A DNA stretch of 64,000 nt. It comes from Neoarius graeffei (taxonomy: Eukaryota; Chordata; Actinopteri; Siluriformes; Ariidae). Under the pieces are notes generated by a model. The model was given only the letters and a program-made list of their open reading frames with translations. It was not told the DNA's origin and ran no database searches. Shown here one piece after another: positions 2,371 through 62,413 of this stretch. The stretch spans positions 36,815,654 to 36,879,653 of the forward strand of contig NC_083575.1 in NCBI RefSeq assembly GCF_027579695.1. The letters are read 5' to 3'. Position 1 is the first letter of the stretch. Every line of letters begins with the position of its first letter. A program made the translations under genes and the position numbers.

Positions 2371-2720
2371 GTTAAAAACAATTCTGCTCAAAGGCTAATG
2401 ATCTGTTGAAAGAAGTATTATTTTTGTATCATACATTGAAAGTTCATCATAGATCTAGCTAAAGTCCGTTGCAAGCTAGTTTTTTTTTGCTGATATTTTT
2501 TGAGATTGATTGAGATACAATGCTTCCAGAGTCCGAGATGAAAACATTCAAAATGGCGAAACGCCATCACACAGCCAACAACACTACGCCATTTGGCGAA
2601 AGAGATGAAAATTAAGAAAAGTTAAACAAACTTACCAACATAACATTTATTTAAATGTCCATTAATGTTACAGGATTTCTTGACTGTCTCTACAGTTGTA
2701 GGAATGTTAGGCCCTGTATA

Positions 2721-3002: not shown

Positions 3003-3308
3003 GATGTTCAATGTACGTTAAAGACTATAAAAACAATTTTCTTGTCATTCACTTCTCCATTCATCTACCCGCTTGTGCTGTGCCCGAAAGTTTTTGTGAC
3101 GTATGATCACGTGACAGCGGCTCTTCCGGTTGTAGAAAATGCATATCGGAGCTCGAGCAGAAATGCCATATAATCATCACGAATATAACGATTTTGCTGA
3201 ATTTAATAGATGATTTTGTATTTGTTGATGTAATTAATTCATATTTTTAATGGAAAGAAACTGATATAGCGTGCATTTACGGTATGTTTCATGTCCCATG
3301 TCCTTTAA

Positions 3309-15170: not shown

Positions 15171-15188
15171 GTACTCTCCAAATCTGTG

Positions 15189-15235
<47 letters not shown>

Positions 15236-26632: not shown

Positions 26633-29600
26633 CTTCCCCGTCTGAGTCAAAACAGTGAAATTCTACACAGTGCTGTTATCTCGCCAGATTGACAGTCTTG
26701 CACTCTCTTGCTCACTCTCTCACTCTGTGTTCTCTCTATCTCTCTTGCCCACAGCTGTATGGCTACTGCTATCAGGACAGCAATGATATCAAGGACACGG
26801 TGACAGCTATCACAGAACTGGGCAGCCCTCTAGAGATGATCCAGTTGCTGCAGACACCCTGGGAAGAACGGTTTCGAGTGAGTGTGTGTCTGCGTCTGCA
26901 CCATATCACACATTCCATCAAGTGTGCGTCTGCTGTCGGAGGAAGGGTGGGAGGGGATTGATTCAGGGAACTGCTCATACTGTACATACTGAACCATGGG
27001 AACCGAACACGCAATCCGACGCGTTGAAAATGCAAGGTTTCATTCCTTATACGCCGTAGGCAGATGAGGTGCATGCAGACAAATCAATGTTATTAATCTT
27101 AGATTTCGATGCAGATCAAACTGAGTGCAGTTAGAGTATGTGTGCAGTGTGAGACCGAGATATACGGTTTCTGTGCTGTGCTTTCTGCTGAGCTCAGGTC
27201 AGAAGAAGGCGGTGTGGGAGACCGGATGACGTCCAGCATGTGGCATCTTTGCCACTTCCTTTCCCTTCCTGACATGTGGCGTAGCGCTGACCCTACAGCT
27301 TTCTCTCACTACTGCAGCAAGGAAAAATAATTTCCGATTACTTCCTGTGGCCAGTGATGCTCCATAATGGCTCCAGCATACAAGATCACAGTACAGTGCA
27401 TCTCTCTGTACAGCAGTTACGTCTATTTATAAAGCACTATGTCCAATTTAATTTAATTTATCTCTATATTATATATTTATAGTGCTATAAATATATATTG
27501 TGTGAAATCCAATACAAACGCTCACCGGCCAATTTATCAGGAACTTCCATCCACCTACTATTTGATGCAGTTCTCTAATCAGCCAGTCCCTTGACAGCAG
27601 CACAATGCATAAAATCATACAGAGACAAATCAAGCGCTTCAGTTAATGTTCACTTCAAACATCAGAATGGGAAAACTGTGATCTCAAAATGTGACTTTCT
27701 TTCACTGTTGGTTTGAGCCAGATGGACTGGTTTGAGTGTTTCAGAAACTGCTGATCTCCTGGGGTTTTCACACACAACAGTCTCCAGAGTTTACACAGAA
27801 TGGTGCGAAAAACAAAAAACATTGAGTTCTGTGGGTGGAAACATCCTGTTGATAAGAGAGGTCAGAGGAAAATGGCCAGATTGGTTCGAGTTGCCAGGAA
27901 GGATATAGTAGCTCATATAATCACTCTTTACAAGCGTGGTGAGCAGAAAAGCATCTCAGCATGCAACAGCAGAAGATCACATGGGGTTCCACTCCTGCAG
28001 CCAAGAACAGGAATCTTAGAATCAAGAACAAGTTCCTATTAAAGTGGCCAGTGAATGTAAAATCCATATGATAATTTTGGATTCAGCAACGTGGCCATGT
28101 GATGTGGGCTGACATGAAACGGAGTTACTGTTACCTCCCAATAATGGCATGCACCAAACTGCTTTATTCCTCTTATACCACAGCAATTTGCAAAAGAATG
28201 CATCCATCCATCCATCATCTGTAGCCGCTTATCCTGTTTCTACAGGGTCGCAGGCAAGCTGGAGCCTATCCCAGCTGACTATGGGCGAGAGGCGGGGTAC
28301 ACCCTGGACAAGTCGTCAGGTTATCGCCAGGCTGACATACAGAGACAAACAACCATTCACACTCACATTCACACCTACAGTCAATTTAGAGCCACCAATT
28401 AACCTAACCTGCATGTCTTTGGACTGTGGGGGAAACCAGAGCACCCAGAGGAAACCCATGCAGACATGGGGAGAACATGCAAACTCCACAAAGAAAGGCC
28501 CTCGCCGGCCACGGGGCTCAAACCCAGGACCTTCTTGCTGTGAGGCGACAGTGCTAAGCACTACACCACCATGCCGCCCCACAACTTGTCATGTTACCGA
28601 GAAACTTCAAACGCTCTCTGTCCTGAAAGTTAAAGTGAAAGTTGTAACTCTTAAAGTGACACTAAACTGACATTGGAGACTCCTTTCAAAAAAGCTAAAT
28701 AAACATCATCTCACAGAAAACTCCACTATATTAACAAGTACACATATGTCACACATCCTACATACCGTCCAGGTTACTATAGCAACGATAATGTATTGGA
28801 ATGAGCAACTTACCTAGCAGCTGGGACTTTGCTGATAGAGAAATTTTTCGATCAGTCAGAAGGACGTTCAGCCGTGCTGTGGTATGACCACACACTATGG
28901 TATGTATGGAGCACTTGCATGTGACGTCACAGCCGATCCAGATTGTGACAGACGCCATCTTGTCGGTCAAATGCCATATTTCTGTCTTCTACTTCTGGTT
29001 CTACTTCTGCTTTTACTTCTACCTTTTCTTCTGGAAAACCCTACTATATACAATTCTACTACAACGGCTGCGGCTACAAGCTCTCCCTACCTGTGCATGT
29101 TTTTTATGTTTTTTGTGTGTATTTTTGCGTGTTGTTTGTCTGTACCGGACTTCAATATCCACTACAACCGTATGGACTTACTGGACATTGGTTTCCAGCA
29201 GAAAATGACGGTTTGTAGCGATTTCCATCGCATGCACAACATTCCGGACGAGATAGCGAGACCAGCGGGGTCTCCGTGGATTGTTATCGGAAGCAAAGCG
29301 AAGGAGGCGGCGTCGGGAGCAGAAGCAAAAGCCAGGCTGCAGAGCCAGCCTGTTGACTAAGCTCAGAAAACAGCCACTCAAATCTCCACTGCTAAGCCTC
29401 TACCTCTCCAACGCCAGATCCATGGTAAACAAGACGGACGATTTGGAATTACAGCTGGAATTACCTTATTCTATTCTATAATCGGCTGGTCAGTGCTATA
29501 CTCAATACTTAAGTGACTTACCCGTCCAATGAGGATTGTTATTTTCTTGTTTACAAGATGCCACATCTGAGTCGCTGACAAATCCTGAATTTCTGTAAAG

Positions 29601-32600
29601 ATAACTGTCCAGAGATTTATAAGCACGCAGTGCTTCACCACTGAACAGCGAGGGAAAGTTAATGAGGTAATTATACACGTCTGGGTATTCCGCTGGCAGT
29701 TCAATATCCACTGACACGGTCGTGAAAACTACGTCCGGTAAGCCATAAGGGTCACTAATCTGTAGGTCGTTTATTTTAGACATATATCTAGTTATCTGTT
29801 CATTAGAAAAATGAGCCATGTAGTCCGTCGGTTGAAATTGATCCATTCTGTACACGAGTGCAGCAGTATTCAGCGGTGTTTTTTACCGACAAGATGGCGG
29901 CTGTGTACTTTCCGGTCACGTGACTGCAAGATCTCTATAGCCTTTGCAGCGCTCACATTGCAGAATTTTTAAACTATGTTCTGTGGGGATTTGACCAATC
30001 TCAGAGCTTCACAAAATGTGTTGTGGACGGATGAGACCAAAATAGAACTTTTTGGTTTAAATGAGAAGTGTTATGTTTGGAGAAAGGAAAACACTGCATT
30101 CCAGCATAAGAACCTTATCCCATCTGTGAAACATGGTGGTGGTAGTATCATGGTTTGGGCCTGTTTTGCTGCATCTGGGCCAGGACGGCTTGCCATCATT
30201 GATGGAACAATGAATTCTGAATTATACCAGCGAATTCTAAAGGAAAATGTCAGGACTGAACATGAACTGAATCTCAAGAGAAGGTGGGTCATGCAGCAAG
30301 ACAACGACCCTAAGCACACAAGTCGTTCTACCAAAGAATGGTTAAAGAAGAATAAAGTTAATGTTTTGGAATGGCCAAGTCAAAGTCTTGACCTTAATCC
30401 AATCGAAATGTCGTGGAAGGACCTGAAGCGAGCAGTTCATGTGAGGAAACCCACCAACATCCCAGAGTTGAAGCTGTTCTGTATGGAGGAATGGACTAAA
30501 ATTCCTCCAAGCCGGTGTGCAGGACTGATCAACAGTTACCGCAAACGTTTAGTTGCAGTTATTGCTGCACAAGGGGGTCACACCAGATACTGAAAGCAAA
30601 GGTTCACATACTTTTGCCACTCACAGATATGTAATATTGGATCATTTTCGTCCATAAATAAACGACCAAGTATAATATTTTTGTCTCATTTGTTTAACTG
30701 GGTTTTCTTTATCTACTTTTAGGACTTGTGTGAAAATCTGATGATGCTTTAGGTCATATTTATGCAGAAATATAGAAGATTCTAAAGGGTTCACACACTT
30801 TCAAGCACCACTGTATCTCTGTCCATATTGTGCAGCCCTTATGGATATAGAGCTGTAGATTTTTGACTGAAATGCATTTTTGTAGACACATACACCACAC
30901 ACACACACACAGAGCCTGCAGCGGAAGCACGCGGCAGGCATTTCGGTGGAGTGCGCCACACTGATCTATGTGTCATCACAGCAGTATATGACTCAGCACA
31001 GCGATTCACACTGAACTCAACATGGACTCGTCAGCCCCTCAACACTCTGATTGTTTTTCAGGTTCGAGAATGGCTTCGCATTGCCAGTCCTAATGCTTCT
31101 CAAATGAAAGGCCCTGAAACTGGACCTCTGCAACACATAATTCGCTGTTCTGTAAAGTATATTTGCCAGGCTAACTTTCCTGCTCCATTTCCTGACATCT
31201 CAGTAATAGTGACTGAATTTCCAGTAGTCTAAATCATAAAGGCTTTTGGAAAGAATAAATGTGGGATACATTTCAATTTTGATTGGAGTGAGTGTGAAAA
31301 AAAATGCAGCTCTGAATTTGTAATTTGTCATCGGCTCATAAAATCTGTTACTGATGTGGAGTAAAGTAATCTTTAAGAGGTTTTCAAAGTCTTGAACCCA
31401 TGCTCAGGAATTTCAGAAAAGCAAAAAAAGTGGTTAGCACTGCCACCTCACAGCAAGAAGGTTCTGGGTTCGAGCCCCGTGGCTGGCGAGGGCCTTTCTG
31501 TGTGGAGTTTGCATGTTCTCCCCGTGTCCGCGTGGGTTTACTCCAGGTGCTCCGGTTTCCCCCACAGTCCAAAGACATGCAGGTTAGGCTAACTGGTGAC
31601 TCTAAATTGACCGTAGGTGTGAATGTGAGTGTGAATGGTTGTGTATCTCTATTACCCCTTTTCCACCAAATCAGTTCCAGGGCTGGTTCGGGGCCAGGGC
31701 TGGTGCTGGTTCACAACTTGTTCAACTTGCGAACCATCTGAGAACCAGTTTGCTTTTCCATAGCTCGGGGTGCTAAGGGGAGCCACATCATTACGTCACT
31801 GTATACGTCCGTTACGTCGCTGTGTTTGCATAAACCTTGGCGCGAACATCGAAGCAACAACAACACGGAGAAGAAGAAGAAGAAGAAGCAGCAACAACAA
31901 CAACAATAATGGATGACTGCTGCTTTACTGCATCCATGATATCGTCGCTTATTTAAAAATGTCGCCCTCTCGCGGTCTTGCTATTGTTGTTGGTCTTAAC
32001 AACTCCGCCCCCCCCGCTGATGTAAGCAGTTCTTTCCTCTGGCCCAGCAAAGAGCTGGTGCTACCCTGGAACCGTTTTTTCTGGCCCAGAGCCAGTTCTT
32101 TGCCAGTGGAAACAGAAAACCCGGTTACAAACTAAGCACTGGCCCCGAACCAGCCCTGGAACTGATTTGGTGGAAAAGGGGTATAATGCCGCTTTTCCAC
32201 TACAAACGCGGCTGAGCCGTGCCGTGCCGAGTCGAGCTGAGTCGAGCTGAGCGGGGCTGTTGGAGTTGCATTTCGACTACAACCGCGCTGAACCGTGCTG
32301 GCTGGAAGTGGGTGGACACATTGGGTGGAGTTAGCGAAAGTGGGTGGACGTCACGTGATGTCGTTAAGCAGCGCAAACAGTGACATCAGTGACAGTGGCG
32401 GAACAAGTCAGAGCCGGGCCGGGGGCGGGGCAAATGACCGGGCCCTTTATTAAAGCTTATCATAACATCATTTTAGGCTACAAAATGTCCGCAACTGCGG
32501 TGTTTACCAATTTCAACACTACCGGGTGCAACTATGTTATTTAGTACATCAAGTCCTTCAAACGAACATGTAACTCAGAAACAAAAAACATTAGGATACT

Positions 32601-35600: not shown

Positions 35601-38600
35601 TCAGAAACTGCTAAGCATGAACTGAAATTCAGTTTTGAAACCGCTAGCCATTTATTCTGTATGCATGACTCAACTATGTTACAAATATGATGTGACTGAA
35701 AGCCATGTCACACCTCATTATAATGACTGTCTATTTTAATCTTAGAAATAAAAAAAAAAGCTATATAATAAACTCTTTATTAAAGGGCTGATGACACGAA
35801 CATGACTCTATGCAATTTCTTAAATAAACTATACAACATGGCAAACATGTTAGATTTCTGTTATAATTACGTGAAAAGAAGCTGTTGTTACGCGAATATA
35901 CAACTTTTAATTGCACAGCGCAAGAAGACTGGGTCCGTGGCTCGCGGCCATGCTGTGACATCAGCGGAAGAACACGCTGCGGTTCACTGGCTGTTCTACG
36001 CTGGTTCTACTCAATGGAAATGGCGCATGAAAACGCCGGTGAACTCTCTAGTGCTAGCTCTTCCTCTTCTGGGAGTCTAGAATTGTGTTGATCTCTTCCG
36101 AATAGAATCTATGATAGCCTACCCTCTTTACCCTTTGCCTCTCGTTGCTAGGCGGCAGTTACATGAAAGCCGCAAGCTTTCACAAGCAAATACATGACTG
36201 ATATCACGCCGACTTTATGATTACATTTATGATTATCATGTAGAATCTATAGCTCTACGTACCTTTATCTTATGTCGTTTCACAACACATGTTCTGACAG
36301 GAGGACTGTCTTTGGATCCGGCATAGCTACTAGTAGACCCCCTCCGGAATACTGGCAGTGTTGCCAGATTGGGAGGTTTCCCGCCCAGTTGGGTGGTTTC
36401 AAGTGCATTTTGGTGGGTTTTGAACATATTTTGGGCTGGAAAACTTCAGCAGTATCTGGCAACAGATACTGCTGACATTTTCCAGCCCAAAATATGTTCA
36501 AAACCCACCAAAATGCACTTGAAACCGCCCAACTGGGCGGGAAACCTCCCAATCTGGCAACACTGTGTAGGCACTGTTGATGGTAGTAACACACGTTTGT
36601 GCTGAACTGAACACCCAAGAGATTCTTTTAAGCTGGGAAGGGTGTCAAAACAATCCAAATCGAAGTGTTCAGAGCACAGGACGGATGTTGGTGAGGGCTC
36701 CCACTTGTCACGAGTGCGCCTGACTTGCTTCACCCACTTCACATGCAGCTCGGGATCTCTGGGAAACTTGAATAAACTTACCCCATCCTTGTGGGTTTTG
36801 GAGCAAAAGCCGGCAACACAACGCGAAGGCATAATAACTATATATATATAATAATGTCTAATAAAAATACTAATAATGATAAACTGAACACCTGTCGCAT
36901 CAACAACAAACTGGTAAGTTAGGAGGAAGGTTCTTTCGCTGACATCATATAGCTCCTCCTCCTCCTTCATCTCCTGGGTGCTGCAGCCCCGTCAAATTTG
37001 CCCAAATAGCCGCGTTTTTTATCATAACTTGTAAAATAGGCGCCTTCGTGAATTAATATATGGATCATCGGGAATTACTTTTTATGTTATAAAACATCGC
37101 CAAAGATGTCAAAAACGTGTCATCAGCACTTTAACCTCGCTTGCTTGGTCTTAACAGGAAAATATCAGGCCTCGGTCTTTTTGTCAAGACCTCGGTCTGA
37201 TATTTTCCCGTAAAGACCTTGCGCTCAGTTAATGAGTAGTGAATAATAACAATATTGTGATCAATTCTACTACAACTCTTAATATAATATGGCATTATAT
37301 AGTCCGTTCTTTTAAATCACTGATTTCTTTTATTATTCACAGTAACAAATAGTTGACTGGGTTATCGATTATATTTTTGCATCAACAGCTGCTTTTCCTT
37401 CCTTTAAATGAAGACTAAATACATCATGTAGTCTATTTTTTTGTTGATCATGAATACAACAATCATTTACACCACAGTTTTAAGTTTTTTAAAAGCATCA
37501 CTGTTTTGTTGGCAGTCTGTTCAGACATACGTTTCCAGTCAAAAGTTTGGACACACTTTCTAATTCAAATGTTTTTTCTTTATCAATTAAGAGTCACTTC
37601 ATGTCATAAAGTAAAGATGGATGTCATTTCTGTTTATTTAGTTGAGCGGTTCTTGACATAATATGGATTACTACAGTTGTCCAATAAGGCTATTTACTGC
37701 ATTTTTATTATTTATTATTTAATGTTTGGTCTCAAACACATTAAAAAGGCAAAAAATTGCACGAATTAACTTTTGACGAGGCACCTGTTAATTGAAAAGC
37801 ATTCCAGGTGACTACCTCATGAAGCTGGTTAAGATAACGCCGATAGTGTGCAAAGCGTCATCAAGTTAAATGGTGGTTACTTTGAAGAATCTAAAATATG
37901 AAACATATTTAGTTTTTTTTAACACATTTTTGTTTTCCACAAAATTACATATGTTTTTTTTTTCCCCATCCATTATCCGTAACTGCTTATCCTGTGCAGG
38001 GTCGCGGGCAAGCTGGAGCCTATCCCAGCTGACTATGGGTGAGAGGCAGGGTACACCCTGGACAAATCGCCAGGTCATCGCAGGTCTGACACATAGAAAC
38101 AGACAACCATTGACACTCACATTCACACGGTCAATTTAGAGTCACCAGTTAACCTAACCTGCATGTCTTTGGACTGTGGGGGAAACCGGAGCACCCGGAG
38201 GAAACCCACGGGGACACGGGGAGAACATGCAAACTCTGCACAGAAAGGCCCTCGCCGGCCGCTGGGCTTGAACCCAGAACCTTCTTGCTGTGAGGCAACA
38301 GTGCTAATCACTACACCACCATTGAACACCGCTGGTTAAGATAATGCTAATAGTGTGCAAAACGTCATCAAGATAAACGCTGGCTAATTTGAAGAATCTA
38401 AAACATGAAACATATTTAGTTTTTCTCTCTCCCATAATCATGGTGGTATAGTGATTAGCACTGTTGCCTCACAGCAAGAAGGTCCTGGGTTCAAGCTCAG
38501 CAGTTGACGAGGGCCTTTCTATGTGGAGTTTGCATGGTGTCTGCGTGGGTTTCCTTCTGGTGCTCCAGTTTCCCCCACAGTCCAAAGGCATGCAGGTTAG

Positions 38601-41600
38601 GTTAATTGGTGGCTTTAAATTGACTGTAGGTGTGAATGGTTGTTTGTCTCCATGTGTCAGCCCTGCGATGACCTGACGACTTGTCCAGGGTAGGGGTCGA
38701 CCAATAATCGGCCTGGCCGATATATCGGGCCAATATTCTGCATTTTTAGGGTTATCGATATCGGCCATAATTTCCACCGATATGCCGATAACATGCCTTT
38801 CTGCAGCCATTTCGTTCCTAACGGGACTGTCACTGCACGTCCTTTCCTGCACTCACCTCTCTGAGTTCAAGAACACGGTCCCGCCCACCACAACATCTGA
38901 TTTGTTGTGAACTGTTTCAAGGCGGCCGTACGGGCACTCGGGCAGAAGCGGCACAAGGGATACAGCCAATCAACATGCGTAGCTAAACGCTGTGAACTGT
39001 TTCAAGGCGGCCGTATGGGCACTTGGGCAGAAGCGGCACAAGGGATACAGCCAATCAACATGCGTAGCTAAACTCTGAACTGTTTCAAGGCGGCCGTATG
39101 GGCACTCGGGCAGAAGCAGATCCCACTTCAAGGTAAGGACATGCTGCTTTTGCCGCAATAAGTCACAAACACACAAGTTGCAAAAGCACAACATTATTAT
39201 ATGTTTACATTCTTCATCTACTACTCATTAAAACTGTCCATTTGCATCTGTGTAGCCAGGCAAACTTAGGTTATGGAAGGAAGCACTTGAATTAGCCTAC
39301 AACCAACTAGTCTCGCTGAAACTACATGTAATGTTGTCCATAGTAAGCAGTCCCCAGCATAACGTAGGCTGCAGTCATTTTTAAATCCCCGTCTGGAAAC
39401 GTTGTGAATGTGTCAGTAGTTCTACTCGAACAGTAGAATGACAGCCATACAGAGAGGTGGTCAAGGGAAGACGAAATAAAACGTAGTGTTTGTGTTCTGT
39501 AGGCTAGCGCAAGCCTACTGGCTATTTGTTATGGTGATGAGTAAACTTCATGACGTGACTCGTGCTCAAAAAGCGCATTGCACTTGTATATGTTAGGTAA
39601 CTTTATAAAGCGCTATTTGAACATTTAAACAAGCCAGGTGTGATATGGTGCTAGTAGGCTGTGTAATACTGTAGGGAGTTTGTCAGGACGCTTGTTGTGG
39701 GCTCAGTAATTAATTGTGTCGTGGATGCACACTTGCTTGGATAAACGGTAATGAACAAAATACATCAATTAAACTCTTGACTTAAATGTTCTTATGCTAC
39801 TTCACATTGCGCTGTAATGTACTCCACTATTTATAATTCTTGCGCAAGTGATTCTCCTCACTAGCGCTTCTGATTCGGAAAGTGATATACTCTTAAAGGA
39901 GCAGAGCCGTAGATGGTTACTTGTTAAGTTGTTACATAATAGGGAGTGATGGCCTACTTTATGTTTGATTTTAATTTTTAAAAAATGCTGCAGGCAGCTC
40001 CCTACACTGGATTTGTTATTTAAAAACTACTTGAAGTTGGTAAGTCTTACTTAGTTCTTAGTGTAAAAGAATCCAGAGTGTATTTTCATTTATTTTCCAC
40101 TGAAAATGGTGAGCTGTAATATAGTAGGGAGTGATTTATTTTTTTATTGGTGAATATTTATTTTATTATTATTTCTCAGGGCGGCACGGTGGTGGTGGTT
40201 AGCACTGTCACCTCACAGCAAGAAGGTCCAGGTTCGAGCCCCGTGGCCGGCGAGGGCCTTTCTGTGCGGAGTTTGCATGTTCTCCCCGTGTCCGCGTGGG
40301 TTTCCTCCGGGTGCTCCGGTTTCCCCCACAGTCCAAAGACATGCAGGTTAGGTTAACTGGTGACTCTAAATTGACCGTAGGTGTGAATGTGAGTGTGAAT
40401 GGTTGTCTGTGTCTATGTGTCAGCCCTGTGATGACCTGGCGACTTGTCCAGGGTGTACCCCGCCTTTCGCCCGTAGTCAGCTGGGATAGGCTCCAGCTTG
40501 CCTGCGACCCTGTAGAACAGGATAAAGTGGCTAGAGATAATGAGATGAGATGAGATTATTTCTCATTTTATTCTAACTAATGTTTGACTTTATTGTACAA
40601 ATGCTGCTGGCATCTCCCTGCACAAAATTTCATGTTCAATTTTACAATTAAACATACATTTCATGGATATGAAGGTCTGTGTCAGTGTGTGCTATGTTTA
40701 ATTTCATGTGAATTATAATGTTTACATTTATCGGTTGCACATATTGGTTATCGGCATCCCAATTCCATAATTATCGGTATTGGCCCTGAAAAAAAACATA
40801 TCGGTCGATCCCTAGTCCAGGGTGTACCCCGCCTCTCACCCATCATCAACTGGGATGGGCTCCAGCTTGCCTGCAACCCTGTAGAACAGGATAAGCGGCT
40901 ACAGATAACGGATGGCTCTCGCCCATAGTCAGCTGGGATAGGCTCCAGCTTTCCCGCAACCCTGCACAGAATAACCACTGCACCACATACATATGTTCCA
41001 GATGTTATTTCATAGTTGTGATGTCTTCAGTATTGTTCTACAGTGTAGAAAATAGTCCAAATACAGAAAAACCTATGAATAAGTAGGGGTGTCCAAACCT
41101 TTGTAAAAAGTAATGACTTGTTGTCAACATGATCTTTTTTTCATATTATTTATTTGTATTGAGTATCCGATGTTTATTTCATAGACAGACAGTAATTGAC
41201 TGTACAAATTATTATTATTTTATTATTATTATGTCTTTCACTGTAGTGCTTTAGTTTTAAAAACCTATTCACACCGAAGCCATATCTGATTCACTGATTC
41301 CGTAATACGACATGAAGCAGCCTTGTTGAAAATATCTTCCACAATTTAACATCTTTTCCTGGAAGCACCGTCCAGCCATGTGCACGTTGTACAAAAGAGA
41401 ACCACCACAGCAAGACTTTAGGAACATTTGAATTGCATATGAGGAACTAATAGGCTCTAGGGACAACGGTGAAACTGCTGCCTACCAAACGGCTCATTTA
41501 CATCCAGAGCCATTTCCTGTGCGCAGTGACGAAGGCTTTCAAAGCCACTGCACTCGACCACGGCCCCTACAGAGTGGCTTTTCAATTAAACCTGCTCTGA

Positions 41601-43917
41601 AAAAAAGCATGCACACATTACACACATGTACAGTACTGCATATACATATTATATATATACTACCGCACTGTTCTTTTCAATGAAGATCACTGTAAACTCA
41701 TCAGAAATACACTCTATAGATAGTTTTCTCTGACGTCACGGCATTCCGGGGAACGCCCTCCAGCCGCCATATTGTGGGGCAAACAAAGGACCATCGCCAT
41801 TACTGGCTACGTTATCTTGGACGAATTTATAAAGTTATATAGTCAGTTTTCTAAAATAAAGATCAATGTCGGCAAAATCAAGCAAACGGAAGTATATAGA
41901 TACATTAGACGACATCTCACGACAACAGTATGCAGCCAAACTGGCCTTGATTGGGGGAATTGACCCCTATGAAGTGGACAAAGATGCATTTTCAAGTGAC
42001 TATGCAGGGCTGCCATCCATATCGTACCCTGATATTGTGAACTATTTCGTGAATAGTAAAAGTGCCTACAGTACACACTTGACGACCTCAAAGCATACAA
42101 GTCGCTGGAGTCATACAATTATTTTGTCTGTGGCTGGGTCCGTGAAGTCCACCATATAAAACCAAGTGACAGTCGTGTCCTAATTACAGCCAAGGTATGC
42201 AAACATTGGAATTTTAGAGCTCTCAACACTGCATATAAATATATGTGTGTGTATAATATCGAGTTGATTTAAGACTATTATGAATACTGTGCAATATTAC
42301 TTTTCATCGGAAAGCTGCGCACATTTGCGTGAAGCTGCGCAAATGTGCGCAGCTTTCCGATTCACTGTTTTTTTCTCATCCTTATACTTCCTATGTTTCA
42401 TGGACTGTAACGGATTTGCTTATTTAGTAATTTTAATACAGAATTTACTTTGAAATTATAATCAGACACTCCAACGCCCCCCCTAAAAAAAAATTGGATC
42501 TGCGTGATTCAGCCGTGAAAAAGGCGGCATCCGCCAAAAGGCGCGCTGTTTGCATCCCTGCATACAGAATAGACCTAAAATGTTTTTCAAAAATGACCCT
42601 TGTGTGGGCGGCATGGTGGTGTAGTGGTTAGCGCTGTTGCCTCACAGCAAGAAGGTCCTGGGTTCGAGCCCCGGGGCCGGCGAGGGCCTTTCTGTGCGGA
42701 GTTTGCATGTTCTCCCCGTGTCCGCGTGGGTTTCCTCCGGGTGCTCCGGTTTCCCCCACAGTCCAAAGACGTGCAGGTTAGGTTAACTGGTGACTCTAAA
42801 TTGACCGTAGGTGTGAATGTGAGTGTGAATGGTTGTCTGTGTCTATGTGTCAGCCCTGTGATGACCTGGCGACTTGTCCAGGGTGTACCCCGCCTTTCGC
42901 CCGTAGTCAGCTGGGATAGGCTCCAGCTTGCCTGCGACCCTGTAGAAGGATAAAGCGGCTAGAGATAATGAGATGAGATGAGACCCTTGCGTGAGTGAAG
43001 TGACAAGTGTCAAATAGAAACGTGACAAATGAGCGATATTGAGTGTACATTACAATGTAAATGTACGGTCAGCGGTTCCAGTTAGGCATTCTCAAGAGAT
43101 TGTTGACACGATGTTTTGGTTTCCAAAAACAAACTTAAACACAATTGATTGTTTATTTAAACAACTTACCACTTATAAAATGATCGGAGCAGACTTTGCT
43201 GTGTTTGGAAGGCTGATAATCCTTGCAGTTGATTCTCGCAAGCCATAGATTTCTCCTTTGTAAGCTGAGTTTCTTTGTTTGCTCGCCTTCGTGCTCCCGT
43301 ACAGTGGGAATTCCATAAAAGCTCCGCTTGACGTCATCATCTGACCTATTACGACAGCCGTGAATACAACAGGTGTGCACCATTGCTAGCTTTAAATAGC
43401 CTGCTTGGGTTCTTTTGAAGACTTTGTACTCGCGTGCTACAATGTGTGCTCAGTCACCCGTACGGTAAGCTTGGCCCGCAAGATGGCCGCCAGTAGGGAA
43501 TTCCCGACTCTGTGACGTCATGTGAAAACTATCTATACATTGCTAATGTGGTAAATGACTATTCTAGCTGCATATGTCTGGTTTTTGGTGCAATATCTCC
43601 ATAGGTGTATAGAGGCCCATTTCCAGCAACTCTCACTCCAGTGTTCTAATGGTACAATGTGTTTGCTCATTGCCTCAGAAGGCTAATGGAGGATTAGAAA
43701 ACCCTTGTACAATCATGTTAGCACAGCTGAAAACAGTTGAGCTCTTTAGAGAAGCTATAAAACTGACCTTCCTTTGAGCAGATTGAGTTTCTGGAGCATC
43801 ACATTTGTGGGGTCGATTAAATGCTCAAAATGGCCAGAAAAATGTCTTGACTATATTTTCTATACTTTTCATGGAAAACACAAAATTGTCTGGGTGACCC
43901 CAAACTTTTGAACGGTA

Positions 43918-43951
<34 letters not shown>

Positions 43952-44326
43952 TCTCTCATCTCATTATCTTAAGCCGCTTTATCCTGTTCTACAGGGTCGC
44001 AGGCAAGCTGGAGCCTATCCCAGTTGACTACGGGCGAAAGGCGGGGTACACCCTGGACAAGTCGCCAGGTCATCACAGGGCTGACACATAGACACAGACA
44101 ACCATTCACACTCACATTCACACCTACGGTCAATTTAGAGTCACCAGTTAACCTAACCTGCATGTCTTTGGACTGTGGGGGAAACCGGAGCACCCGGAGG
44201 AAACCCACGTGGACACGGGGAGAACATGCAAACTCCACACAGAAAGGCCCTTGCTGGCCACGGGGCTCGAACCCAGGACCTTCTTGCTGTGAGGCGACAG
44301 CGCTAACCACTACACCACCGTGCCGC

Positions 44327-44371
<45 letters not shown>

Positions 44372-47300
44372 GATGAACATATGCACAGGGCATTAAAACA
44401 GCCTCATAGTAGATTTTTTCCCATAATCTCCGAATGTTTATCAATATCTGCTGCAACAGATTCGACCATTTGTTTTTGTTTCCAATTACTTTTTTTCCCA
44501 TTCTACCAAACTTTTTCTTGATTACATCAAGAAAAAATACCCATGCACAGTTCACTGGGCAAAGCCTAACCCATTTAAATGCATCCTAATCCTGAGTAGA
44601 TTAAAACCAGGTTTTTTTAGGTGTGTAAAGCAGGCAATGTGTTCACCCACTCCCTTCTCCTTTGCGCTGTTCCTCCTACTCTGTTGGTAGTGGGGATTTG
44701 TGTACAGCTTGTGTGACATGTTTCTTCTTCAAAACCCCAGTCTCACTTACTCTCATCTTACACCTAACACCCTTGGGCACATTAGGAGTGTTAATCGTTG
44801 GGGCACCGAAATTTACATATGATTGCATACACAGACTGAAGTGTTACTTCGATACTTACATGCACTAAGTATTGCAGGGTTTCACGTGACGTCACATCCG
44901 CCTCATTGGTTATTCGAAACTTTAGCTGGTGGTCTACTAAAGCTCAGTTGACAAAGCGTTTGTACGGAGAAGGTGCATTGCTCGCATGAAAAATGCCTCA
45001 CGCTTGCGTTGTTTTAGGTTGCTCGAATCGATCAAACCGTGAAACTGATAAAAGTTTCTTCAGGGTTCCCCGTGAACTAATAAAAAAGGGTGAATGAACA
45101 GGATTTCACAAAAAGACGTCAAGAAAAGTGGCTTTTGAACCTCTCGCTGAAATCGAAGGGAGCCGAGTCGAAGCATGCTCTAGTTTCACTTGGTGAAAGG
45201 TTTGTATTTCCCTTTCAGCCATGTTCTTAGTGTTTTCCGAGTACTTTTCTTGCTATGTGCCGTTATTTTATGGTCCTTTTTTTTGTCACGAAGCGCTAAA
45301 GTCCCCAGCTGTTTCTTTGTTTACTCCTCACAAAGTCCATATGCATAAAGGTCGCGACAAAATTCTTCCCCAGCCGTACAGTGATCACTTCTCCGTCTTG
45401 TTTAACTAAGATCCAGGTCTTTAAAGGGGTTTCTGATGATCTTTGTGAATGATTTAGCTGAGAGATACAGTAAGAGCCAACACAAGTGAGAATCAAGCCA
45501 ACTGTTGTTTGTTTACACTTCAACTTGCAGCTCTTCATTGTAAAGACACGAATGAAAAGCTTAAAAAAAACATACTTACACGGGCAAAAACAATACAGGA
45601 TTCATTCGGCAGCGACTTGATAGCGAGGTCCTTTACCCAGCCACATACAAAAAAGTTGTAAGCCTCCATACTCTTCCACGCTTTCATCTGTTTTGCGGTG
45701 TAGAAGGACGTCTGCAACACCAGATAGTTCGAGATGTCGGGGAACTCGACTGAAGGGTAGTTTTCGAGATCGTATGATAAATCCTTCTTTCCCAGACTGT
45801 AGGGGTCGATTCCATTGCACACAGCAATCTTCTGAATATATCTAAAGCCAGCAGTGGCTTCTACAGTAGATTACGAGAGTACTCTGATAAGTTATCGCTA
45901 GTTGTTTGCACTACGGCAGCCGTTTAGACCACCAGCTATTTCACTTCCGGTAAAACTGCTAAGAAAAATCACGTGACTGAAACCCAGCAATTGAATGTAG
46001 CCCATTTAGAAAGTGACTAAACAAAAAGATTGTGTGTAATAAAAGATGAAGCACTTTGTGATATACTTAAGTCATATGTGATTTAATCTAGACGAGCAAA
46101 ACCGATATTTTCTCTGACACAATGTGATGTAGATCTGCCTGAGCCTGGCACGTCTGCTACACTACCTGGCCCACTCGCCACTCGGCTCCCTCACCCTGCT
46201 GGATTTCAGGCCCAGGCAGTTTGTACTAGTGAACGGAGAGTTAAAGGTGACCGATCTAGACGACGCCAGTGTGGAGGACACGCCCTGTTCAGGCTCTTCA
46301 CCTACTGACTGCCTCTTAGAGTTCCCTGCTCGCAACTTTACCCTCCCGTGCACCAGCGGCTACTGCCAGGGTATTAACGAGAAGAGGAATCTATACAATG
46401 CTTACAGGTAAGCACTGGCCATGGACCGAGAACTGAAGCAATTATGATGCTGCTGTGTTCAGTTAGCTCTATAATTACAGTGCTTCTCAAAACGGGGTTT
46501 GTGAAACTTAGCCAGGAGGTCCATTTTTTTTTTCTTATTTTTTTACTTTGCTACAGTGCTGGAAGTCACAACCTATCATTATCAAAATGATTAAATTTGT
46601 TATTGAATTCTTACAGTTATTAGCATATTTGACTGGTCACTTGAATTGTATAGGTTTCATCCAAACCTCAAAAATTCAAAGAAACTGGCCTGTAAATCAT
46701 TTTAACTTGGATGTAATATATTCTTTTGATGGAAAGTTCAAGAGTAGAAAGCTCTCCAGAAGACTTCAATACATATTGTATTATATGATTGTATCAGTCA
46801 CAATATTTTATTGTACACATTGAAATCATATTCATATAATAAAATGTCCTGAAATCCGTCCATGGAATTTATTTTAGAGTTAAAAAGGTCCTGGGCTACA
46901 AAATTGGACACAGCTTTCTTTATTACAACTGACACAACAATACAAGATAGGCACTACATTTTCACGAGAGCTGTATGAGTATTTATTCTTTGCTGTATTG
47001 TCGCTCTAATTGTTCTTCATGTTGTTGCCAGGTTCTTCTTCACCTACCTGCTTCCTCACAGTGCTCCCTCAGCCCTGAGGCCTCTCCTCGCCAACATCGT
47101 CAACTCGACAGGTCAGTACGTTTTCTCTCACACACTTTGCTGGAGCGAGCTACAATCAGAATCCTGCCTATTTCCCTTTTTTTTCTTCTTTATTTTTCTC
47201 TCGCTCCTCTTGTGTATCTCCACCCATGTTTTGTGTGTGTGTGATATCAGCTTGTTCATCCAGCTGATGGAATGTCACATAGGGTTTGAAATCTGCCTTT

Positions 47301-47530
47301 CTGGTGCGCAGCAGGCCGTTAAGATGCGGGTACTGTGTGTGGGCTTGCTTGGTGCTGATGATATCCGTGTGTTCATAAAGTGCTGAATCATAAAGAGCTC
47401 ATTCTGAACTAATTTACGTTCGGTTTTTTTTGCTTTTGGTGGGGTTTTTTTGTTTGTTTTTTTGGTGCATGTTTATCATGTGATTCATCTTCCACGAACA
47501 GTGAAGCTTTGGAGAATGCAGAAGAATGTT

Positions 47531-47585
<55 letters not shown>

Positions 47586-47721
47586 AGGGGAGCTTCTCTG
47601 GGACACAGATGAGACTCTAGCTCACCTTGAGAAGGTGTTGGAAATGTATAGGAATGGACATTACCTTTTGAATGACACACAGATACACAAAATAAGTAAG
47701 TAACCCCCTCCCCCACCACCA

Positions 47722-47766
<45 letters not shown>

Positions 47767-50147
47767 CACACGTCTGTTTATCTTACTATCCATGTGAGGT
47801 CCCTCCATGGACACACGGTAATTATTAGAAAGAATTCAGAAAGATCTCCGCTTACATGGTCTTTGACACAATATCTGAGGTAATGAGGATAAAAAAAGAC
47901 AATACGCGTCAGTAAGTTATAGAGATTTTAGCTATATTATTGAGATATTTAAATATCTCAGTGTTGCAAAAATGAGGAACAAGTTTTCATTTTTGTTAAG
48001 AATTTTATTGTGCATTTGACTTTTCTGTAATATGTTTTCCTTTTCCATTTCTTTATGTTCTTTTGTTTTCTTTGTGAAGAATAAGGCATGAGCAGAGACT
48101 TGCCGCACTGCATAGAAACATCAGCAGCTGTTCACTTTTGGCTACAAGCATTAGCTGCTGGTCAGTTTAACAGAGTTTACTAACTAACACTGTCACCTCA
48201 CAGCAAGAAAGTTTTGAGTTCGAGCCTCACAGCCGACTCGGACCTTTCTGTGTGGAAATATTCTCGTCATGCCTGTGTGGGTTTCCACTGGGTGCTCCGA
48301 TTTCCTCCCACAGTCCAAAGACATGAGGATTAGGTTAACTGGATCCTCTAAATTGCCCATAGGTGTGAATGAGAGTGTGACAGTTGTTTCTGTGATAGAT
48401 TGGTGACCTGCCCAGGGTGAACCCCGCCTTTCGCCTGAAGTCAGCTGGGATTGGCTCCAGCTTCAAGCTGTGACCCTGACAGATAAGCAGTATTGCTGGG
48501 TTTCACATAACGTCACATCCGCCTCATTAGTTATTCAGAACTTTAGCTGGTGGTCTACCAAAGCTCAATTGACAAAGTGTTTGTACGGAGAAAGTGCATT
48601 GCTCGCATGAAAAATACTTCACGCTTGCGTTGTTTTAGGTTGTTTGAATCGATCAAACCATGAAACGGATAAGTTTCTTCAGGGTTCCCCGTGAACTAAT
48701 AAAAAAGGGTGAACAAACACAGGATTTCACAAAAAGACGTGGAGAAAGATGGCTTTTGAACCTCTAGCTGAAATCGAAGGGAGCCGAGCCGAAGCATGCT
48801 CGAGTTTGAAGTGATCACTTGGTGAAAGGTTTGTATCTCCCTTTCAGCTATGTCCTTAGTGTTTTCCGAGTATTTTTCTTGCTATGTGTCGTTATTTTAC
48901 TGTGCTTTTTTTAGTCACGAAGCGCTAAAGTCCCCAGCTGTTTCTATGTTTACTCCTCACAGTCCATATGCATGAAGGTCACGACAAAATTCTTACCCAG
49001 CCGTACAGTTACAATGCGCCGTGATCACTTCTCCGTCTTGTTTAACTAAGATCCAGGTCTTTAAAGGGGTTTCTGATGATCTTTGTGAATGATTTACTTG
49101 AGATAAGAGCCAACACAAGTGAGAATCAAGTCAACTGTTGTTTGTTTACACTTCAACTTGCAGCGCTTTGTTGTAAAGATGCGAATGAAAAGTAAAAAAA
49201 AAATACTTACACGGGCAAAAACAATACAGGATTCATTCGGGAGAGACTTGATAGCGAGGTCCTTTACCCAGCCACATACAAAAAAGTTGTAAGCCTCCAT
49301 ACTCTTCCATGCTTTCATCTGTTTTGCGGTGTAGAAGGACGTCTGCAACCCCAGATAGTTCGAGATGTCGGGGAACTCGACTGAAGGGTAGTTTTCGAGA
49401 TTGTATGACAAATCCTTCTTTCCGAGACTGTAGGGGTCGATTCCATTGCGCATAGCAATCTTCTGAATATATCTAAAGCCAGCAGTGGCTTCTAGATTAC
49501 GAGCGTACTCTGATAAGTTATCGCTAGTTGTTTGCACTATGGCAGCCGTTTAGACCACCAGCTATTTCATTTCCAGTAAAACCGCTAAGAAAAGTCACGT
49601 GACTGAAACCCAGAAATAAATAATGGATGAATGGAACTGTAAACAAATGTAATATTTAGATGCCTAAAAGTTGATGAACTACACTGTCCATTTGTGACGC
49701 ACACACAAAATGCCTGTTTCTCTGGTCCCACTTCACACCACTTTCCCACATAAAGACGAAATTAATAAAAATGAGAAACACAAAGGGAAATATGTACTGC
49801 AAAAAAAAAAAGATTATTGCTAAAAGAAAAAGGTTTTACAATTCATCAGTTTGGTTTGAAATGTAAATATTTTTGCAACTCACAAAAGTCTCACCTTATA
49901 ATATGTTCTTTCTTGTCACTACTAAAAATCTTACTTGGACTCCATATCTTCCCTGCATGAAATATCTGATAACATTTTAACATGATTACCCACAGCAGGC
50001 CTTCTCCTCCTATGACTGATAAGCAGTCAGGGGTGGTTACATAATCCACTCGTCTCTCCTTCCTGTCCTGTGTTCCTCTAGTTCCTGCTCTGGTTCAGCG
50101 GGATGCATTTCACCCTGCAATATGAATGTGCATCCTAAATTCTGGCA

Positions 50148-50190
<43 letters not shown>

Positions 50191-53100
50191 GCAGCAGACC
50201 ACGGACGAACGAGATATGAAAAAGATTAGAGTTTATGTAACTTTGTTGGAAAAGAAGGTCAATTTTTTTTTTGGCTGTTTCGAGAGAAACAAACGTCACC
50301 ATAGCTATCACACTTCCTCAGCCTCAGTTGTTTTTGTGTAATTTAACCTCCATTCGGTTCCTTTTCCTTTTCTGCACATACTGTACTCACTTGACTTTTC
50401 CTCTTCAAGCTATTCTGCCTGCTCTTGTTCTGCCACTTTCACACTCGCAGTCTGGATCCTGTGCTTCACCCTTTTACATACTCACTATTTGCCTTTCCCC
50501 ATCTCCTCTCCTCGCTCCATTTGCCCTGTAAAGCAGAAAGACAGACGCTCGTTGAGTGACGAGTGCATTAAGAAAGTATCTATATCCAGACAGGTTAACT
50601 CTTTCCAGTCATGACTCAAGACAAAAGCTTTTCCCTGCAGCTAATAAGTTTATTGGTGAAATAAGCATTGCTTTGTCAGTGTTTTACACAAATCTAAAGG
50701 TGATGATACACGGGGCAACTTTTTGGGCAATGTTGCCAGCAATGGGCAACCAGGTGAGACACAGGGTGATTAGGGCAACAGATGATTGGCAACAACCAAT
50801 CAGATAAGAGCAACTCACAAAAAAAAAAAAAAATCATGAGCTGCCCATCACTTTCAACTTGACACAAGAGAGCTAAGGTTACTCCTACATAGCTAGCCAT
50901 CACTTTCAGCTAGCTACAGTGGTGCTTGAAAGTTTGTGAACCCTTTAGAATTTTTATATTTCTGCATAAATATGACCTAAAACATCATCAGATTTTCACA
51001 CAAGTCCTAAAAGTAGATAAAGAGAACCCAGTTAAACAAATGAGACAAAAATATTATACTTGGTCATTTATTTATTGAGGAAAATGATCCAATATTGCAT
51101 ATCTGTGAGTGGCAAAAGTATGTGAACCTCTAGGATTAGCAGTTATCTGAAGGTGAAATTAGAGTCAGGTGTTTTCAATCAATGGGATGACAATCAGGTG
51201 TGAGTGGGCACCCTGTTTTATTTAAAGAACAGGGATCTATCAAAGTCTGATCTTCACAACACATGTTTGTGGAAGTGTATCATGGCACGAACAAAGGAGA
51301 TTTCTGAGGACCTCAGAAAAAGCGTTGTTGATGCTCATCAGGCTGGAAAAGGTTACAAAACCATCTCTAAGGAGTTTGGACTCCACCAATCCACAGTCAG
51401 ACAGATTGTGTACAAATGGAGGAAATTCAAGACCATTGTTACCCTCCCCAGGAGTGGTCGACCAACAAAGATCACTTCAAGAGCAAGGCGTGTAATAGTC
51501 GGCGAGGTCACAGAGGACCCCAGGGTAACTTCTAAGCAACTGAAGGTCTCTCTCGCATTGGCTAATGTTAATGTTCATGAGTCTACCATCAGGAGAACAC
51601 TGAACAACAATGGTGTGCATGGCAGGGTTGCAAGGAGAAAGCCACTGCTCTCCAAAAAGAACATTGCTGCTCGTCTGCAGTTTGCTAAAGATCATGTGGA
51701 CAAGGCAGAAGGCTACTGGAAAAATGTTTTGTGGACGGATGAGACCAAAATACAACTTTTTGGTTTAAATGAAAAGCGTTATGTTTGGAGAAAGGAAAAC
51801 ACTGCATTCTAGCATAAGAACTTTATCCCATCTGTGAAACATGGTGGTGGTAGTATCATGGTTTGGGCCTGTTTTGCTGCATCTGGGCCAGGACGGCTTG
51901 CCATCATTGATGGAACAATGAATTCTGAATTATACCAGTGAATTCTAAAGGAAAATGTCAGGACATCTGTCCATGAACTGAATCTCAAGAGAAGGTGGGT
52001 CATGCAGCAAGACAACAACCCAAAGCACACAAGTCATCCTACCAAAGAATGGTAAAGAAGAATAAAGCTAATGTTTTGGAATGGCCAAGTCAAAGTCCTG
52101 ACCTTAATCCAATCGAAATGTTGTGGAAGGACCTGAAGCGAGCAGTTCATGTGAGGAAACCCACCAACATCCCAGAGTTGAAGCTGTTCTGTATGGAGGA
52201 ATGGGCTAAAATTCCTCCAAGCCGGTGTGCAGGACTGATCAACAGTTACCAGAAACGTTTAGTTGCAGTAATTACTGCACAAGGGGGTCACACCAGATAC
52301 TGAAAGCAAAGGTTCACATACTTTTGCCACTCACAGATATTCTCTTTATCTACTTTTAGGACTTGTGTGAAAATCTGATGATGTTTTAGGTCATGTTTAT
52401 GCAGAAATATAGAAAATTCTAAAGCGTTCACAAACTTTCAAGCACCACTGTATGTTACCTAAAACCATTGCTCATTAGCTAAATCCCATTCAATCTCTAT
52501 GGCGCAGTGGTTAGCTAACAGAAGTTTACACTTAGCTGAAAATAGATGTCTGTTGGTTTTTCTAAGCACTCGATGAGGTAAAGTCACCACTTTGGGTTTA
52601 CACGTAACAACTTACCAGCATAAAAAATTATACAATTTGTCTCTCTTTTTCTTCATTCCACTGCCGTTGAGACGCCACCATCTTTGTTGAAAATTTCAGA
52701 AGCTCTCAGGTGGTCATGTGATTCACTGCTAGCACTCTGATTGGATGATCTTAAAACGTTGCCCAAAATGATCAAAATCATTCAGATAGAAATTATGTTG
52801 CCCATTCTCAATGGGAAAGAGTCGAAGCGCAAGTGCCCCGCAACATTGGCCAAAAAATTGCCCCATGTATTAAGAGTATTATCAGTACAGCAGGTTACAT
52901 CGTAAATATACAGCACTTACAACACGTTTCTTTCAAATATGAGTTCCATAATTTTCCTCAATTTTATGTTGCTTTCACATGTACACACGATTGCAGTGAG
53001 AAAAAGAGTTAACGGGAAGTTGACAGGAAGCTTACCATGAAGTGAACTAAAAATGGGGTGTATTAATGGGTGTAGGCAGATGTATTTATTTATGAGACAT

Positions 53101-58904: not shown

Positions 58905-58937
<33 letters not shown>

Positions 58938-60761: not shown

Positions 60762-61137
60762 GACGGAGACGGGATGAGGAAGAGCTGTGGTCTCATTGTG
60801 TTCTCACACTGCAGTCATTATGTGGACATTTGGGATGAGTCACCTTCATGGCTCTCCATCCATCCATCCATCCATCCATCCATCCATCCATCTATTCACT
60901 ATTTTTAAAAATTATTTATGCTAAATTCATGAGGACATCGAACACAATGAGACGTAATTTAGTGCAATGGAGTGTCTCGTTTATCTGAGCTCCCTTCTCT
61001 GGTTTGAATGTTGAAAATAATTTCAAAGTTGAAGTTGGGCCTGGTTAGGTCCTGGACCTTCACAAGTCATCCTCAGACACACAGCCATCAGGGATCTATT
61101 CTTCCTCTTTTTCATTTCCCCAAACCACCTATTCTTC
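60762..61137 (+). other. pkdcc: pkdcc 3' UTR / downstream sequence
   Basis: Follows the stop codon directly. Contains (CATC)n at 60856-60891. No AATAAA is evident before the THAP-type element copy v, so the mRNA end is not defined. Confidence 0.5.
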
Positions 61138-61366
61138 GTGTGCAACCACGTGACAAAATAGTTTGACGTATGCATCCGCTGCCATGTTCAATGACATACA
61201 AATCCAGAATGCCGTCTCGTGTGAACAATAACTGTGAAGCATCCCTGACTTTCTCAAAATATTACGATTCTCTGGAGTCCTCTGCCAAGTCAAGCTTCAG
61301 AGAAAAAGTTGAAATTTGTGGTTTTGACCCATATATGTTAAAGTCGTCAGATTATACAGAAGATTT

Positions 61367-61724
61367 CTCATCTCATTATCTCTAGCTGCTTTATCCTGTT
61401 CTACAGGGTCGCAAGCAAGCTGGAGCCTATCCCAGCTGACTACGGGCGAAAGGCGGGGTACACCCTGGACAAGTCGCCAGGTCATCACAGGGCTGACACA
61501 TAGACACAGACAACCATTCACACTCACACCTACGGTCAATTTAAAGTCACCAGTTAACCTAACCTGCATGTCTTTGGACTGTGGGGGAAACCGGAGGAAA
61601 CCCACGCGGACACGGGGAGAACATGCAAACTCCGCACAGAAAGGCCCTCGCCGGCCACGGGGCTCGAACCCGGACCTTCTTGCTGTGAGGCGACAGCGCT
61701 AACCACTACACCACCGTGCCGCCC
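61367..61724 (-). mobile_element. SINE, type A, splitting THAP-type element copy v
   Basis: Duplication TACAGAAGATTT (61355-61366) / TACAGAGGATTT (61725-61736). It interrupts the element's first exon. Internal deletions of 12 and about 10 bp are present. Confidence 0.93.
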
Positions 61725-61785
61725 TACAGAGGATTTAACCTCATTTATTACCACCGATTGAATACCCTGATACTGTGAACTATCT

Positions 61786-61880
61786 CCATCCATCCATTAT
61801 CTGTAGCCGCTTATCCTGTCCTACAGGGTCGCAGGCAAGCTGGAGCCTATCCCAGCTGACTATGGGCGAGAGGCAGGGTG
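61786..61880 (-). mobile_element. SINE 3' fragment
   Basis: Tail plus about 80 bp of the 3' end (CCATCCATTATCTGTAGCCG to GGGCGAGAGGCAGGGT), consistent with 5' truncation at insertion. Confidence 0.85.
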
Positions 61881-62413
61881 AACTCTCTCATTCTACAAAA
61901 AAGTGCATAAGTAAAATGAAGTTACTGGGATGGTATCGCTAATATCTCACCTGGCAAAATTGACCCACATTGTTCTCCTTGTGTATCCAAATTCGCTAAG
62001 GTTTGCGCTGCTTCTAATCTGGCTTTCTTGGCAGATCTTTCATTTATCCTGTTGCTTCTTGATACTGCGAGATGAGTTTTCGTCTTGATCTTATCGTGTC
62101 CTAATTTGAGTCTTGGTACCCAATCTGGATTTGTTTTATTGCATAGGTTTGCCGGTTCTCCTGCAAGGTGAGGAGCAGAGTGTTTGCGCTAAAGCTCAAA
62201 AGTTCAATTTAATCAGCAGCTTCAATTAGTAATGAACTCTTACCAGATATAAAGTGGTCATCACACACGCGGGTGTAATTAGCTTCTTCCTCAGTTATAC
62301 GCTCGGCGTTCCCTGGACAGTTCTTCATCTCTTTTGTCGCCGTTTTTAATTATCTGGGAATTCTGACGAACCATTTCTCTTGGTCACGAGTAGCATTATT
62401 CTGCAATTATATA

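Follow-up and report, generated by a model that had tools for sequence, protein, structure and literature searches.

In a 64-kb stretch of the genome of the siluriform fish Neoarius graeffei (NCBI RefSeq assembly GCF_027579695.1, contig NC_083575.1, positions 36,815,654 to 36,879,653; the window, to which all positions below refer), five copies of a two-gene transposon survive as short remnants. Our analysis suggests that these copies are inactive relics, either deleted internally or interrupted, of DNA transposons of the ISL2EU type (PHIS/Harbinger-like; ISL2EU is also called IS4EU), a reading to which we give a probability of roughly 75%. It is built on a THAP exon that faces the first exon of a second gene, on terminal inverted repeats (TIRs) and on the dinucleotide AT at the target. 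The elements themselves are mostly ordinary genome debris, and their interest lies rather in the arrangement of short palindromic sites at their ends.

The two genes and the five copies

When exon peptides were run against the window by tblastn, an exon encoding DPY…YPDxxNYL…KAYKSLEAYNxFVCGW, which we call exon 1 of the second gene, was found at five places: 29562-29846 (minus strand, copy 1), 41866-42144 together with 42078-42197 (plus strand with one frameshift, copy 2), 45577-45864 (minus strand, copy 3), 49208-49495 (minus strand, copy 4) and 61191-61382 together with 61742-61786 (plus strand, split by a short interspersed element (SINE), copy 5). All five had already been recognized by a sequence-only reading of the window that preceded this analysis, and beyond them nothing in the window matched at E <0.02. 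The exons of copies 3 and 4 are nearly alike (E 5.6e-60), the remaining pairs among copies 1-4 match at E 1e-10 to 0.005, and copy 5 matches copies 2-4 at 4e-8 to 2e-6 and the diverged copy 1 at 0.028; an alignment of all five sequences has 5 invariant columns. Exon 1 has no Pfam match above cut-off, and HpcH_HpaI, BCL_N and other matches were discarded as below it. AlphaFold, given exon 1 of copy 4 and four relatives, returned a mean predicted local distance difference test (pLDDT) score of 48, which was too low for a fold search.

Opposite the second-gene exon, on the other strand, copies 2, 3, 4 and 5 carry a THAP exon, which bears out the earlier count of four. The THAP exon of copy 2 gives the sole clear Pfam match among the five copies (E 1.4e-9, above cut-off); that of copy 5 is below cut-off in Pfam (E 0.02) and matches at 0.002 in tblastn, and those of copies 3 (1.1e-5) and 4 (8.5e-7 and 0.003), which contain stops and frameshifts, were found by tblastn only. 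Copy 1 has no trace of THAP by tblastn or six-frame Pfam search. The exon runs into a donor-like sequence in each case, GTAAGT in copy 2 and GTAAGA in copy 5 (both after HFISG) and GTTTGT in copies 3 and 4 (after HLVKG), and that it stops at the same place in copies 2-5 speaks for a common descent of these sequences. Exon 1 of the second gene likewise has a donor-like end, which reads GTATGC in copy 2 and GTAAGT in the other three of copies 1-4. For both genes this agrees with the earlier statement that the exons end at splice donors, with the exception of copy 5, whose second-gene exon is broken by SINEs and has no donor remaining. A further THAP exon lies at 36566-36832 (Pfam 4.8e-14), with no second-gene exon seen beside it.

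Copy 1 (28913..29931) is a relic with TIRs in which only the second-gene exon remains of the two genes (29522..29846, minus strand, up to its GTAAGT donor; YqaJ/SWIM-type in our labelling), and the reading of an open reading frame (ORF) places sequence resembling a long interspersed element inside it. Copy 2 (41722..43530, with AT at 41720-41721 and 43531-43532) also has TIRs and keeps exon 1 of both genes, that of the second gene on the plus strand (41866..42194, with the frameshift and the GTATGC donor) and that of the THAP gene on the minus strand (43170..43383, up to GTAAGT), with a SINE at 42602-42983. Copies 1 and 2 have no blastn match to each other. In the first intron of the second gene of copy 2 there is also a 56-bp self-complementary stretch (about 90%) at 42306-42361.

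Judged by their sequences, copies 3 (44873..45989, AT at 44871-44872 and 45990-45991) and 4 (48494..49615, AT at 48492-48493 and 49616-49617) are sisters that represent a single deletion derivative, which transposed at least one further time. They are 90.9% alike from tip to tip (63 substitutions at 1099 aligned sites), their flanks differ and the internal junction is common to both, which argues for one deletion followed by transposition. The sequence-only reading had supposed that several lineages lost their centres independently; with this shared junction there were at most four such events, not five. Copy 3 has THAP exon 1 on the plus strand (44993..45199, with a stop inside; 44993-45100 by tblastn and the remainder by alignment to copy 4) and, on the minus strand, second-gene exon 1 (45580..45864, GTAAGT donor, with a frameshift upstream of this stretch) and exon 2 (45336..45457, the 45336 end being approximate). 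The corresponding parts of copy 4 are a broken THAP exon 1 (48614..48831, plus strand), second-gene exon 1 (49211..49540, minus strand, GTAAGT donor, with ATA at the position of the start codon) and second-gene exon 2 (48997..49095, minus strand).

Exon 2 of copy 4 reaches the residues HCxC (…AHCNCTAG) just ahead of a GTAAGA. The SWIM zinc motif is CxC…CxH, and we read this HCxC as the probable start, or first half, of a SWIM-like motif, the label SWIM being our own. In copy 3 a 13-bp deletion lies at the place of HCxC, and in copy 4 the acceptor of exon 2 is altered relative to copy 3 (CAAG/T for CAG/CT) and in-frame splicing is not expected; because of these two defects neither second gene would yield a working protein. 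The earlier guess of a SWIM-type second gene is thus strengthened by copy 4, and the accompanying claim that the middle is always deleted fails on exon 2 of copy 4 and on a second THAP-gene exon in copy 5. Separately, the differences between copies 3 and 4 are fewer in the second-gene exons (13/411 sites) than elsewhere (50/688; Fisher 0.0046), though both copies are broken, and in exon 1 the proportion of nonsynonymous differences is below that of synonymous ones (5/228 vs 5/60; Fisher 0.036); these tests were picked post hoc on a single pair of broken copies, and we therefore build nothing on them.

Copy 5 (61141..62413) keeps its left end and has lost its right part at a Tc1/Sleeping Beauty-type element, which is inserted in the THAP exon and reaches the end of the window (62414-64000, with arms at 62414-62619 and 63796-64000; Pfam DDE_3 5.9e-10, above cut-off, and HTH_SB 5.4e-8, below cut-off). 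The position 62411, previously taken for a terminus of copy 5, is in reality this insertion point, and the missing THAP start and right end of the copy would lie beyond the window. Second-gene exon 1 (61191..61786, plus strand) is split by a SINE at 61366-61725, and the remainder of THAP exon 1 (62244..62413, minus strand) ends at the GTAAGA donor. Between them lies exon 2 of the THAP gene (GEPANLCNKTNPDWVPRLKLGHDK…; 61951..62160, minus strand), which had been missed earlier. It extends from an AG acceptor to a GTGAGA donor and, by reading, is in phase with HFISG over an 83-bp intron. This exon 2 has no Pfam match and may resemble a stretch that follows THAP in fish ISL2EU-type transposases. 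It had 0 matches in a PDB sequence search, and another PDB search returned one match, at E 0.49.

Ends, target site and the assignment to ISL2EU

Han et al. (2015, PMC4482050) describe ISL2EU as a superfamily of animals only, in which most autonomous candidates have one ORF combining DDE, helix-turn-helix (HTH) and THAP and another encoding a YqaJ exonuclease. The elements make AT target duplications, have TIRs of 6-259 bp whose first bases are usually GG and have a mean length of about 4.8 kb, and the families share an A before and a T after the duplication, from which the target A-AT-T was inferred (PMC4482050). A further article (PMC9179366), which counts teleosts among the hosts, likewise describes ISL2EU as having two ORFs, one for a THAP/HTH/DDE transposase and the other for a YqaJ exonuclease protein. 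Our relics resemble these elements in having a THAP-bearing gene together with a second gene, in their TIRs, in the AT at the target and in coming from a teleost. The sequence-only reading had seen here the relics of a transposon with a THAP gene and an opposite gene, which stands, and had offered no standard superfamily name for it; a described superfamily, ISL2EU, already covers this layout (PMC4482050, PMC9179366).

The TIRs of copies 1-4 are gapped and about 60-100 bp long, within the published range. Their alignment scores (49 in copy 1, 55 in copy 2) were reached in 0/1000 shuffles each for copies 1, 2 and 4 and in 1/1000 for copy 3. When 2000 random window pairs were scored instead, each of copies 1-4, and a sixth two-gene relic at 2096-3116 (described below), had its score reached 14-23 times, which may be due to the SINEs and simple repeats shared within the window. 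For the truncated copy 5 there is no TIR pair inside the window (score reached in 356/1000 shuffles and in 649/2000 random window pairs). AT flanks copies 2, 3 and 4 on both sides, that is, three of the four copies with two ends in the window; since AT is its own reverse complement, its presence on both sides is weak by itself. The flanks of these three copies, when read, contained no TTAA at the tips and no direct repeat beyond AT, hence no 8-bp duplication. Transposons of the P-element superfamily (including THAP9 and Galileo) share with our copies a THAP-bearing transposase and differ in making 8-bp duplications, where copies 2, 3 and 4 have AT only. Both the P type (8 bp) and the Kolobok type (TTAA) fit the flanks worse than ISL2EU does.

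Copy 4 sits within a SINE: when its two flanks are joined, the resulting sequence aligns over the junction with other SINE copies of the window. This fixes the insertion of copy 4 and leaves its target duplication unfixed. Among the 5 SINE copies listed under both counts, a single AT at the empty site, as a duplication would require, scores higher at 2/5 (24557-24679, the best match, 100 v 99.1 bits; 28203-28325, 76.0 v 74.4), and two ATs, which would mean no duplication, score higher at the other 3/5 (one v two: 33459, 83.7 v 85.2; 37941-38083, 82.2 v 83.7; 6619, 72.9 v 74.4). The margin is 0.9-1.6 bits in either direction, and omitting AT altogether gives a lower or equal score at the 4 SINE copies shown.

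Along with the three SINE copies that favor two ATs, several other observations weigh against assigning the copies to ISL2EU. Copy 1 has AT on its right side only, and copy 5 has its right end beyond the window. AT is embedded in T-AT-A in copy 4, T-AT-T in copy 3 and G-AT-C in copy 2, unlike the published A-AT-T, and the tips read AGTTTTC (copy 2) and TGC[A/T]GGG or TTCTGGG (copies 3 and 4) rather than GG, which is published as usual and so is not strictly defining. What our copies retain is first exons and parts of second exons; the DDE and HTH exons seem to be missing, and no match to DDE, HTH or YqaJ was found in six frames of 41000-50500, of 60901-62500 or of copy 1. Pfam gives no SWIM match on the half motif of copy 4 exon 2, and SWIM is not mentioned in the accessible descriptions of ISL2EU. 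Finally, the DPY…FVCGW exon is assigned to a YqaJ protein by its presumed likeness to fish proteins, together with its SWIM-like continuation. With no DDE or YqaJ detected, an AT duplication left undecided, tips other than GG and an AT context other than A-AT-T, membership in ISL2EU is probable, not proven.

These same departures at the tips and the target, the unproven AT duplication and the lack of a Pfam match above cut-off for the second-gene exon could also be expected if the copies represented an undescribed two-gene superfamily tied to ISL2EU by its THAP exon only. We regard this as very improbable, as the THAP gene, the second gene and the AT flanks fit the published ISL2EU, which is known from teleosts and in which GG is merely usual. 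Somewhat less improbable, and still unlikely, is that the copies are Kolobok elements. Kolobok lineages (Kol0/KolX, KolobokE) also have an accessory protein next to a DDE transposase, either KolX or, in KolobokE, a lambda-exonuclease-like nuclease, so that both two-gene and exonuclease-bearing forms exist, and the sixth relic, which combines a THAP exon with one resembling KolX, has tips of a similar kind and may belong to them. However, Kolobok is described as making TTAA duplications, unseen at the tips of copies 2, 3 and 4, the nuclease of KolobokE is placed downstream of the transposase domain and not on the opposite strand, and the word THAP is absent from the main text of the paper on KolobokP, whereas ISL2EU is described with THAP. 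A new superfamily would have mattered, and as far as the evidence goes this is not one; the useful results are a probable name for the relics, a rule for the ends that can be tested and evidence, within the window, that the accessory gene continues into a SWIM-like motif.

Palindromic sites at the termini

The sequence-only reading had noted TGACGTCA and CACGTGAC motifs at the ends of the copies, and these proved to be far more frequent than in shuffled sequence. The window contains TGACGTCA at 7 positions (mean of 0.5 in 60 dinucleotide shuffles); for CACGTGAC there are 13 positions, in 10 places because a GTCACGTGAC counts twice (mean of 0.9 in the shuffles). An exact TGACGTCA or CACGTGAC lies within 25 bp of the tip at 10/12 ends inspected, and at 8/9 of the true ends of the five copies, while 0.47% of random 25-bp stretches of the window contain one. 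Its distance from the tip is 4-15 bp at these 10 ends; the two ends without it are the left end of copy 4, which reads CACATAACGTCA, and the ‘right’ end of copy 5, where the copy has no true tip. For copies 1 and 5 and the sixth relic, the motifs themselves helped to define where the tips lie; the ends of copies 2 and 3 were defined by their inverted repeats, by AT and by their similarity to copy 4. Copies 2 and 3 therefore provide the fairer count, and in them the motifs are found at 4/4 ends (binomial 5e-10).

A second site, the YY1-like CCATNTTG, is present at 4/4 ends of copies 1 and 2, always pointing inward, at +35 to +46. The exact CCATNTTG is absent from the first 100 bp in copies 3, 4 and 5 and in the sixth relic; copy 5 has GCCATGTT at +41. 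CCATNTTG alone is not enriched in the window (18 vs 13.8 in shuffles), and CGCCATNTTG is (6 vs 0.4). We take CREB/ATF, USF/MITF and YY1 to be the readers of such cAMP response element (CRE), E-box and YY1 sites (TGACGTCA, CACGTGAC and CCATNTTG), and from the motifs we infer that the termini may be promoters for the inward genes, read by host factors. A precedent is ProtoRAG of lancelets, a two-gene transposon with RAG1/RAG2-like genes and an unrelated transposase, in which a YY1 site within the TIR is important for transcribing both genes, with YY1 acting as their repressor (PMC7481187).

It is plausible as well, if short of likely, that TGACGTCA and CACGTGAC are not promoter elements but binding sites of the element's own THAP or SWIM protein, used for excision. 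Their distance of 4-15 bp from the tip is where transposase sites would be expected, and the long TIRs of Galileo are reportedly bound by THAP domains (PMC3688188). Against this, the sixth relic, which has a different second gene, bears the same palindromes at its ends, and the palindromes of copies 1 and 2 are followed by a YY1-like site of the kind that matters for transcription of the two ProtoRAG genes (PMC7481187). The palindromes are moreover the exact sites of what we assume to be common host factors (CREB/ATF, USF/MITF). The promoter reading and binding by the element's own protein are compatible, and both can be true.

Our proposal for the intact element is as follows. Two genes would run inward from opposite ends, the first encoding a cut-and-paste transposase that begins with a THAP DNA-binding domain, and the second an accessory protein in which the DPY…FVCGW domain would be followed by a SWIM-type zinc motif and then by a YqaJ exonuclease; the DDE, HTH and YqaJ parts are predicted. 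Host factors would use the termini as promoters by way of the CRE or E-box close to the tip, supplemented in copies 1 and 2 by the YY1-like site at 35-46 bp. On each side, a few hundred bases would then contain the promoter, the first exon and the end bound by the transposase, overlapping one another, so that deletion derivatives that are still mobile would tend to retain both first exons, which could be why the copies survive as two-ended stubs. Copies 3 and 4 would have been mobilized in trans by intact relatives binding their preserved ends.

More speculatively, and with rather more doubt than belief, one might propose that two-gene transposons of different superfamilies (ISL2EU, the Kolobok-like sixth relic in the window and the published ProtoRAG) have converged on one terminal grammar, in which a CRE/E-box palindrome stands 4-15 bp from the tip, accompanied in some of them by a YY1 site at 35-46 bp, with each terminus serving both as a transposase site and as a host-driven promoter. 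If this is true, the retention of both first exons in deletion derivatives would follow from the double role of each terminus, and transcription of the element could be linked to the control of its excision. Should the CRE/E-box and YY1 arrangement hold in intact copies, it would show how small two-gene transposons express both genes from their own tips. In searches of open PMC papers we found no report of such sites in ISL2EU or Kolobok ends.

The sixth relic and other observations

Searches for intact relatives outside the window yielded only candidates that we rejected. Phages gave no tblastn match to copy 4 exon 1, and a pattern scan of viral contigs with the exon protein gave 3 pattern matches, none of them a relative. 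Three DNA patterns run over viral contigs gave 0, 2 and 7 stretches, and one scan of prokaryote contigs gave 2. The 11 loci fetched were treated as chance: the best tblastn match (7.6e-4, on a Streptosporangium contig) is an extension of the search motif, and the best matches in four of the loci (E 0.001-0.006) fall on the 9-residue motif that had served as the search pattern.

The sixth two-gene relic (2096..3116) has TIRs (score 45, reached in 0/1000 shuffles) with CACGTGA and CRE-like sites and one inward exon per end. The left exon (2173..2367, plus strand; …RCEVRPYQFEP…NTSW, then GTAAGT) has no Pfam match and is presumably KolX-like, and the exon at the other end is a THAP exon (2721..3017, minus strand; Pfam THAP 1.2e-14). 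A TTAA lies beyond the left tip at a distance of about 11 bp, and the right tip has none as near. The relic is perhaps of Kolobok type, and if so, two superfamilies have the same kind of tips. KolX is described as a P2X7-like partner of Kolobok transposases.

Two CACGTGACATCA sites, in which an E-box overlaps a CRE-like site, lie at 13883 and 15894; they are similar to the left end of copy 3 and are perhaps solo transposon ends. They flank an apparent first exon of a host gene (14397-15257), which has a Pfam kinase match below cut-off (0.029) and which we take to be PKDCC-like. A TGACGTCA is also found at 14153, about 0.25 kb upstream of the start of the ORF of this exon.

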